A stretch of DNA of 38,847 bases, taken from contig WBXH01000006.1 in the NCBI GenBank assembly GCA_008933015.1, positions 1 to 38,847 on the forward strand, read 5' to 3'. The stretch's first letter is position 1, and each line of letters opens with the position of its first letter. The notes below the pieces were generated by a model. The model was not told the origin of the DNA. It searched no databases and was given only the letters and a program-made list of their open reading frames with translations. Shown here piece after piece: positions 1,037 to 2,838 of the stretch. Position numbers and translations under genes: made by a program. The stretch comes from Verrucomicrobiota bacterium (GTDB lineage Bacteria; Verrucomicrobiota; Verrucomicrobiia; Chthoniobacterales; UBA6821).

Positions 1037-2608
1037 TCAGACGCGGGGCATCTCAATACCTGGAGCAGTTTGCTGCATGAGAAGAACGCGGTTAATCGCA
1101 TTCACGTAGGCCCGTGCGGAGGCCTCGATGACGTCGGTGGAGGCCCCTTTTCCAGTGATCAGCCTTCCATCACCGAAGTCAACCTTCAGGGTAACCTCAC
1201 CGAGTGCATCCTGTCCTTCGGTGACTGCCTCAACGAGGTAAACGGCCAGATGACCGGTCTTCTTCACGATCCGGTCGATCGCCTTCATGGCTGCATCGAC
1301 TGCTCCGTTACCGGGGCTCGATTCCTCAATAATCTCTCCGCCATGTCTTAGTTTTACGGTAGCAGTGGGAACGGTGCTCCCGCCGCATACGACCTGCAGC
1401 GACTCCAGTGCATAAGCACCGGTTTCACCGGCAACAGCATCACCAGCGAGGGCAACCAGATCATCGTCGTAGACGAATTTTTTCTTGTCACCAAGCTCCT
1501 TGAATCGGGTGAAGATCGGTGCGATCTCAGCTTCCGTAAGAGTAAGTCCCAACTGCTCAAGACGGGCCACCATGGCATGTCGACCGCTGTGCTTTGTCAA
1601 TGGTAGGTCGGTCCCCCCCCAACCCACGTCGCGGGGATCCATGATTTCATAAGTCTCTCTCATCTTCAGGATGCCATCCTGATGAATGCCAGACCCATGA
1701 GCAAAAGCGTTCTCGCCGATGATGGCCTTGCTACGCGCGACCTGAAGGCCGCTCAGGCGGCTGATTAGGCGAGAGGTCTTCAGGATCTCCTTGGTGGCGA
1801 TTCCGGTGGAAAGTCCTGCAAAGACATCAGGGCGGGTCTTGATCGCCATCACGACTTCTTCAAGCGCGGCGTTTCCGGCCCGCTCACCGATACCATTGAA
1901 AGTCCCCTCGACCTGACGAGCACCGGCTTGGACGGCGGCAAGCGAGTTAGCAACAGCCATGCCGAGATCGTCGTGGCAGTGGACGCTGATCACCGCATTC
2001 TTGATGTCGCGGACATGCTTGCGGAGATAGGTGATCAGATCGGCGTACTGGCCGGGCATGGCATAGCCGACGGTGTCGGGAATATTGACCGTTGTGGCGC
2101 CCGCCTCGATTGCAGCCTGCACGACCTCGGCCAGGAACTCAGGCTCGGTGCGGGAGGCATCCTCTGGGGAGAACTCAACATCCACAGTCATGGACTTGGC
2201 CTGACGTACACCCTCGACAGCCAAGCGGAGAATCTCTTCGTTGGCTTTCTTGAGCTTATGCTCTCGGTGGATCTTGGAGGTCGCTAGGAAGACATGGATG
2301 CGGGCACGCTCACCGGCGGGGAGCAGGGCGCGGCCAGCAGCCTCGATGTCCTTGGGGACGCAGCGCGCGAGGCCGGCAATCACGGGGCCGGTAATCTCGC
2401 GGGCGATCGTCTGCACGGCTTCAAAGTCCCCGTCGCTAATGACAGGAAATCCCGCCTCAATGATATCGACATTGAGGCGAGCAAGTTGCCGGGCGATCTC
2501 GAGTTTTTCACGCAGATTCATCGAGGCACCGGGGCACTGCTCTCCGTCACGCAGAGTCGTATCAAAGATCAGAACCTTATCGGAGTTGATGCCGGTGTCT
2601 GAAATCAT
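1037..2608 (-). CDS. leuA: 2-isopropylmalate synthase
   Basis: LeuA condenses acetyl-CoA with 2-oxoisovalerate, the first committed step of leucine synthesis. The 523-residue protein is full length. The HMGL-like TIM barrel opens with FDTTLRDGEQCPGASM (metal-binding Asp and catalytic Arg), has the metal-ligand motif SVHCHDDLGMA, and the signature GIGERAGNAALEE. The C-terminal LeuA dimer domain, the leucine feedback site in the family, ends with GEVTLKVDFGDGRLITGKG and EASARAYVNAINRVL. The ATG at 2608 has no Shine-Dalgarno sequence. The gene lies 230 bases downstream of purL, and that gap holds a Leu-rich leader ORF and hairpins (see separate entries), so regulation by leucine availability is likely. 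No other leu gene is in the window. Confidence 0.96.
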   Translation of the reverse strand: MISDTGINSDKVLIFDTTLRDGEQCPGASMNLREKLEIARQLARLNVDIIEAGFPVISDGDFEAVQTIAREITGPVIAGLARCVPKDIEAAGRALLPAGERARIHVFLATSKIHREHKLKKANEEILRLAVEGVRQAKSMTVDVEFSPEDASRTEPEFLAEVVQAAIEAGATTVNIPDTVGYAMPGQYADLITYLRKHVRDIKNAVISVHCHDDLGMAVANSLAAVQAGARQVEGTFNGIGERAGNAALEEVVMAIKTRPDVFAGLSTGIATKEILKTSRLISRLSGLQVARSKAIIGENAFAHGSGIHQDGILKMRETYEIMDPRDVGWGGTDLPLTKHSGRHAMVARLEQLGLTLTEAEIAPIFTRFKELGDKKKFVYDDDLVALAGDAVAGETGAYALESLQVVCGGSTVPTATVKLRHGGEIIEESSPGNGAVDAAMKAIDRIVKKTGHLAVYLVEAVTEGQDALGEVTLKVDFGDGRLITGKGASTDVIEASARAYVNAINRVLLMQQTAPGIEMPRV

Positions 2609-2640
2609 AGGTCTAGGTATTTTAGAAATCGTGGAGCATG

Positions 2641-2669
2641 CCCGTCATGGACGGGTCAAGACGTTACCC
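2641..2669 (-). promoter_or_regulatory. Alternative hairpins between leader and leuA
   Basis: On the minus strand CCCGTC-CAT-GACGGG (2655-2641) is a perfect six-pair hairpin 32 bases before the leuA start. An alternative four-pair stem GGGT/ACCC (2669-2666 with 2656-2653) would use the same CCC and exclude it. No T-tract follows, so this is not a classical intrinsic terminator. It could act through Rho or by affecting leuA translation. The role is inferred. Confidence 0.35.
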
Positions 2670-2672
2670 TGT

Positions 2673-2738
2673 TTAGGAAACAAGGAGAAGAAGGCCGCTG
2701 GCGCGAAGTTCGCAGGCTTTGTCAGCGGCTTGTTTCAT
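2673..2738 (-). CDS. Putative leucine leader peptide upstream of leuA
   Basis: A 21-codon ORF (ATG at 2738, TAA at 2673-2675) too short for the ORF track. It ends in GLLLLVS; the four Leu codons are CTT CTT CTC CTT, followed by GTT. All four Leu codons belong to the CUU/CUC pair normally read by a single tRNA-Leu (GAG anticodon). The enterobacterial LeuL leader also has a run of four Leu codons after Gly, so the resemblance is striking, but this sequence is not homologous to it in any way I can show. It lies 64 bases upstream of leuA in the same direction and is buried in a hairpin. Initiation signals are weak: only AGG three bases before the ATG. Inference: ribosome stalling at these codons under leucine starvation controls leuA. 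Confidence 0.6.
   Translation of the reverse strand: MKQAADKACELRASGLLLLVS
2677..2736 (-). promoter_or_regulatory. Hairpin spanning the leucine leader ORF
   Basis: On the minus strand GAAACAAG (2736-2729) pairs perfectly with CTTGTTTC (2684-2677), and the adjoining GCCGCTG (2729-2723) pairs with CAGCGGC (2700-2694), sharing one base with the outer arm. The 3' side carries a nine-base bulge, CTTCTTCTC, which is exactly the first three Leu codons. A small inner stem (GCGA/TCGC) closes the loop. The hairpin therefore covers almost the whole leader ORF, and a ribosome moving through or stalled on the Leu codons must open it. Confidence 0.55.
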
Positions 2739-2838
2739 AAACCTAAAATTGCCACAGACCGCACCTACTGGCAACTAATCTCAGGCAGATTGAGTAGGAC
2801 AGCCCCTCCTAAAGGGTTACTGGAGTGGCGGACGGACA

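Follow-up and report, generated by a model that had tools for sequence, protein, structure and literature searches.

The window analysed here, a stretch of 38,847 nt from a Verrucomicrobiota bacterium (contig WBXH01000006.1), carries purL and leuA on its minus strand, and the interval between them (purL ends at 2839) holds a short ORF encoding MKQAADKACELRASGLLLLVS. The initial annotation had described a 21-codon ORF with a run of leucine codons on the leuA strand, and the ORF was found with those codons at 2738–2673. As in the classical description of an attenuator, this short ORF repeats codons for the amino acid that the pathway makes. Judged from the window alone, it is only mildly unusual: an ORF with at least four Leu in five codons arose in 3.6% of 2000 dinucleotide shuffles of the region. 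The leader ORF is therefore taken as real because of the comparative evidence, not the single sequence. An Rfam covariance-model scan gave no match at the gathering score in the window and none at E ≤ 5 in 12 loci. The features of the locus are summarized in Table 1.

Table 1. Features of the leuA leader region in the window
Feature	Coordinates	Strand	Remark
Predicted leader promoter, -35 box TTGCCA	2769..2774	minus	Spacer of 17 nt to the -10 box; highest-scoring promoter in the region
-10 box CAATTT, preceded by TGG (extended -10)	2746..2751	minus	Ends 7 nt before the leader ATG
Leader ORF MKQAADKACELRASGLLLLVS	2673..2738	minus	21 codons, ATG 2738 to TAA 2673
CGCGCCAGC (Arg-Ala-Ser)	2697..2705	minus	Homologous to arm 1 of relatives, where the conserved element is CGCGCTGGC (Arg-Ala-Gly)
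Control codons CTT CTT CTC CTT (four Leu)	2682..2693	minus	Distance to the stop codon as in congeners
GGGT, candidate arm 2 after the stop codon	2666..2669	minus	Pairs with ACCC 2656-2653; not above chance
Hairpin CCCGTC-CAT-GACGGG, candidate arms 3 and 4	2641..2655	minus	Site of the relatives' terminator hairpin; no T tract
leuA, 2-isopropylmalate synthase, presumed regulated gene	1037..2608	minus	NF002086 and TIGR00973 above cut-off; LeuA_dimer PF08502 E 1e-36

We searched for leuA in the genus, order, and class and collected the upstream regions. ORFs with at least four Leu in five codons preceded leuA in 12 of 15 genus members (window included), 19 of 43 other order members, 13 of 49 other class members, and 9 of 20 named Verrucomicrobia, compared with 3 of 45 non-Verrucomicrobia and 1.2–2.4% of shuffles (2.4% for the genus). 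Presence was uneven, with few or no such ORFs in families f13, f15, f20, f24, f44, and f50. The nearest named leuA records were uncultured Spartobacteria MAGs. Leu-run ORFs also preceded leuA in three records titled Planctomycetota, Planctomycetales, and Pirellulales (L060, L064, and L100); an example from this group encodes MPTNSLSLLLLTLPLGA and is followed by a GC hairpin and a T tract.

In most congeners, the ORF ended in RAG.LLLLAL before the stop codon, while the window ORF ends in RASGLLLLVS with the run equally placed relative to the stop; four congeners (L006, L008, L009, and L012) had an ORF of the same length as that of the window. A covariance model built from nine leaders of the same genus, with the window held out, matched the window leader (2637–2738, minus strand) with an E value of 7.7e-12 and 33.7 bits, which was the top match of its genome (next, 16.2 bits). 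The model gave no match at the leuA of the sister genome G005. Two weak matches elsewhere (G012:C25 and G000:C10) were set aside, as no leucine gene or Leu-run leader was recognised there. Over the last six codons, pN/pS within the genus was 0.36 in frame, compared with 1.7 and 4.5 in the other frames, and this codon pattern supports translation in the leader frame. The Leu codons of the window differ from those of congeners mostly at third positions, with all four Leu intact; the window-against-congener pN/pS was 0.65 over the last 10 codons, so constraint on the window branch appears modest. Codon pN/pS across the class set was uninformative, and structure probably constrains the same codons.

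Promoters were located by taking, in each upstream region and regardless of where the ORF starts, the highest-scoring sigma-70-like candidate. This candidate ended 4–11 nt before an in-frame ATG or GTG of the Leu ORF at 68 of 83 loci (window included; 5.7 expected from position) and at 35 of the 40 loci with a single possible start; related loci are not independent, and kinship inflates these counts as it does the codon counts. The -35 position is kept in the genus as TTGCAA or TTGCCA, and the -10 box of the window is weak. Since the promoter lies 7 nt before the ATG, transcription of the window leader is predicted to start at, or within a few nucleotides of, the start codon, and the leader mRNA, with its start predicted from the promoter consensus, is probably leaderless. 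With homologues in the genus and across the class and a promoter upstream, the earlier proposal of a leucine leader before leuA in Verrucomicrobiota was supported; it did not mention that the start is probably leaderless, that relatives have terminators and antiterminators, or that ilvB is preceded by a Val counterpart.

That counterpart emerged from a class model whose training set comprised leaders found before type-1 leuA. The model also matched Leu leaders before a different 2-isopropylmalate synthase (L208–L213 and L217), assigned to NF002991 with TIGR00970 close but below cut-off on partial sequence, and a search for type-1 leuA in the genomes carrying these leaders found none at E ≤ 1e-100. 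It further matched Val-run leaders before ilvB. Leaders of this kind in Pedosphaera-like families (L218, L219, L220, and L269–L281), such as MQVDLNNLTVVVVPSGAAVGC, share the layout of the Leu leaders. Among 13 hand-picked Pedosphaera-like ilvB upstream regions, 11 contained at least three Val in a five-codon aliphatic run (1.5% of shuffles), and 10 of the 12 Val-rich ORFs listed had a promoter scoring at least 8 at the matching distance. No Val-run ORF was found in three ilvB upstream regions of other families, and nothing comparable to an Ile, Leu, or Val leader before ilvB was recognised in 15 genomes of the window's own genus. That the control codons match the product of the gene is the best argument that they are read as a sensor.

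Downstream of the ORF, the Pedosphaera-like leaders carried a near-perfect terminator, for example ACCCCACTGCCGAACCCGGCAGTGGGGTTTTTG. Across 28 Pedosphaera-like loci, 97.7% of terminator cells were paired and six pairs were changed on both sides (0/500 shuffles). The last ORF codons in these leaders, GGCAGTCGGGTT (Ala-Val-Gly), imitate the 3' arm of the terminator and can pair with its 5' arm. This antiterminator was paired in 83.8% of cells with 11 double-changed cells (0/500 shuffles as high); pairs changed on both sides numbered four, a value reached by 25 of 500 shuffles. In these families, the predicted anatomy is that of textbook attenuation, with a covarying terminator and an antiterminator encoded in the ORF.

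An intrinsic terminator was present in 9 of the 13 genus leaders scored, as in nearly all Pedosphaera-like relatives, and recognisable terminators were missing in many order members that keep leaders (f5 and most of f7). In the genus, a comparable switch uses different sequences: GGAGCGGCC after the stop codon pairs with GGTCGTTCC, which excludes a hairpin GATCCGG/CCGGATC followed by CTTTT; the alternating stems are GGAGCGGCC:GGTCGTTCC, GATCCGG:CCGGATC, and CCGCGCT:GGAGCGG, and are too invariant for a covariation test. Family f5 (L027, L029, L031, L122, L124, L125, L128, L132, and L139) had a near-invariant GGGAGTGGCGCCCC directly after the Leu run and no recognisable terminator, which raises the question of whether this stretch might be another output step.

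In the window's own copy, the minimum-energy fold of the ORF (-20.4 kcal/mol, z -3.4; 2/200 shuffles as good) pairs the arms GAAACAAG (2736–2729) and CTTGTTTC (2684–2677) as well as GCCGCTG (2729–2723) and CAGCGGC (2700–2694), with the Leu codons in a bulge. These arms are the ones given in the initial annotation, but they are not conserved among congeners, which instead conserve stems that alternate near and beyond the stop codon. In the window's full-length leader transcript, the 3' arm of the ORF favours CCTTGTTT/AAACAGGG round the stop codon over the arm named in that annotation. The two mutually exclusive stems described after the ORF, GGGT (2669–2666)/ACCC (2656–2653) and CCCGTC (2655–2650)/GACGGG (2646–2641), are likewise present, but in its fold the post-ORF region does not stand out from shuffled sequence (z -0.6 to -1.0), and we rejected them as significant structure. 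Between the leader and leuA of the window, a search for an intrinsic terminator found none and no T-tract, in agreement with the earlier description. Because of this absence, we call the window copy a leader homologous to attenuators and not a demonstrated attenuator.

In the leuA phylogeny, the window (G000), G005, and G009 form a supported clade nested within the genus, one that has lost the terminator. leuA stands behind purL in the window and in G005, and the G009 contig ends 43 nt upstream. Absence of the Leu run from close relatives had been named beforehand as evidence against a leader; most congeners keep the run, but in the closest relative with sequence, G005 (locus L004), the promoter is conserved and the run is out of frame with the ATG. 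This disruption could be real decay or an assembly error. We read the window copy as a genuine leu leader that appears to be derived, its output step lost or changed.

The proposal that the four Leu codons need a tRNA-Leu (GAG), which would act as the sensor, was not supported. The Leu anticodons among the tRNAs examined in the 85%-complete assembly of the window genome were UAG and AAG, and in a congener whose assembly is 95% complete, the long-armed tRNAs examined gave CAA, UAG, CAG, and AAG; GAG was not found in the incomplete window genome or in this congener, and the Leu codons of the relatives' leaders are mixed CTN. CUY codons are probably read by an A34 tRNA. The tRNA-Leu with anticodon AAG, which to our knowledge is unusual in bacteria, lies at L310:1163-1246 (G000:C4) and was also seen at L348 (G004, a congener).

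Taken together, the ORF is likely to encode a leucine leader and to be a homologue of leu attenuators, probably leaderless, that form a class-wide family in Verrucomicrobiota; in relatives, members of this family would switch leuA by ribosome position, and the window's clade has lost the T-tract terminator. Homology, the conserved frame and Leu run, the promoter position, and the covarying terminator and antiterminator of the Pedosphaera-like leaders were computed; stalling and the direction of regulation we infer. The promoter would start transcription at or next to the first codon of the ORF, and ribosomes would load on the 5' AUG. A ribosome short of leucyl-tRNA would stall in the Leu run, and with plentiful leucyl-tRNA it would reach the stop codon. 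In the relatives, its position would choose between the antiterminator and an intrinsic terminator directly ahead of leuA. During a stall in the Leu run, the last codons would be exposed and the antiterminator could form; a ribosome at the stop codon would cover them and the terminator would form, such that leuA would be read when leucine is short. For the window's clade, our best guess is that the stall still switches between GGGT:ACCC and CCCGTC:GACGGG; the output might, speculatively, be Rho-dependent rather than intrinsic termination.

A competing account shares the homology and departs from ours only in what the leader does now: derived from the class-wide attenuator, the leader lost its terminator in the clade of G000, G005, and G009, regulation ceased, and leuA is simply transcribed through. 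The missing terminator, the chance-level post-ORF stems, the disrupted frame in G005, and the nesting of the clade within a genus that mostly keeps its terminator are all consistent with such a relict. The intact frame, peptide length, and four Leu codons of the window, changed at third positions, argue against it, as do a promoter block 78% identical between the window and its sister (only 50% in the spacer upstream) and the persistence of leaders in other order families without terminators. We regard the relict account as possible, with a probability appreciable but below even, and decay of the window leader is nearly as likely as altered function. Alternatively, a stalled ribosome may alter access to the leuA start rather than transcription, which would suit the lack of a terminator in the window and several order families and the genus hairpin ending only 7–13 nt before the leuA ATG. 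In the window, however, the hairpin ends 32 nt upstream of the ATG, no Shine-Dalgarno sequence that it might hide was seen before leuA on reading the sequence, and the class has clear terminators, so we consider such translational control unlikely.

Two further explanations are highly improbable. Although comparable Leu runs occur in shuffles of the region at the rate given above, an ORF that arose by chance, or one for a small hydrophobic protein that has its own role and no connection with leuA, is at odds with the covariance-model match, the conservation, the promoter position, and the switch to Val before ilvB. Equally improbable is a long-range inverted repeat in which the promoter region would pair with the leuA start in purL read-through transcripts and silence them: the helix does appear in the minimum-energy fold of 2609–2760 (z -3.75), but 23% of shuffles reached its duplex energy in the window, as did 43% in the sister, and we rejected it as not exceeding shuffled sequence.

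Enterobacterial leuL combines a Leu-run leader, mutually exclusive stems, and a terminator with an ordinary ribosome-binding site on a leadered transcript. The window shares the Leu-run leader with it, and the window's relatives also share the mutually exclusive stems and the terminator before leuA; unlike in leuL, the start codon here lies at the predicted transcription start, and there is no Rfam match. In Streptomyces lividans, leuL1 before leuA (MRFGLLLLSCRGEGL) is leaderless and has no typical Rho-independent terminator (PMC8079986), and the actinobacterial LEU element has a conserved pseudoknot and pairs its Leu run with the Shine-Dalgarno box of leuA (Seliverstov et al. 2005, PMC1262725), with translational control as one reading considered. 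Like these, the window has a short Leu-run ORF before leuA, no typical terminator, and a start that is leaderless by prediction, whereas its relatives, unlike the LEU element, have T-tract terminators with an ORF-encoded antiterminator, and the window has no visible leuA Shine-Dalgarno box. Streptomyces trpL1 and leuL2 (PMC8079986) similarly consist of a leaderless leader peptide followed by hairpins, in a different phylum and with different genes. As leaderless, terminator-less leu leaders are known in Actinobacteria, neither feature is new in kind. A search for literature on leucine leaders of Verrucomicrobia and Planctomycetes, in a library without most subscription journals, found nothing relevant.

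We tentatively propose, with somewhat less than even confidence, that Verrucomicrobiota, and perhaps other PVC bacteria, may possess an undescribed, deeply conserved family of leaderless branched-chain attenuators, with a Leu run before two types of leuA and Val before ilvB and an antiterminator in the last codons of the leader, in which some lineages, including that of the window, would have kept control after losing the terminator. Ribosome-mediated attenuation, probably leaderless, would thereby extend to a phylum without an earlier report in the literature searched. Leaders with a complete terminator, a weak one, or none form a natural series in which to study how the output step of an attenuator is lost or altered, and the predicted leaderless start sites offer a ready set for tests of translation initiation in Verrucomicrobiota.
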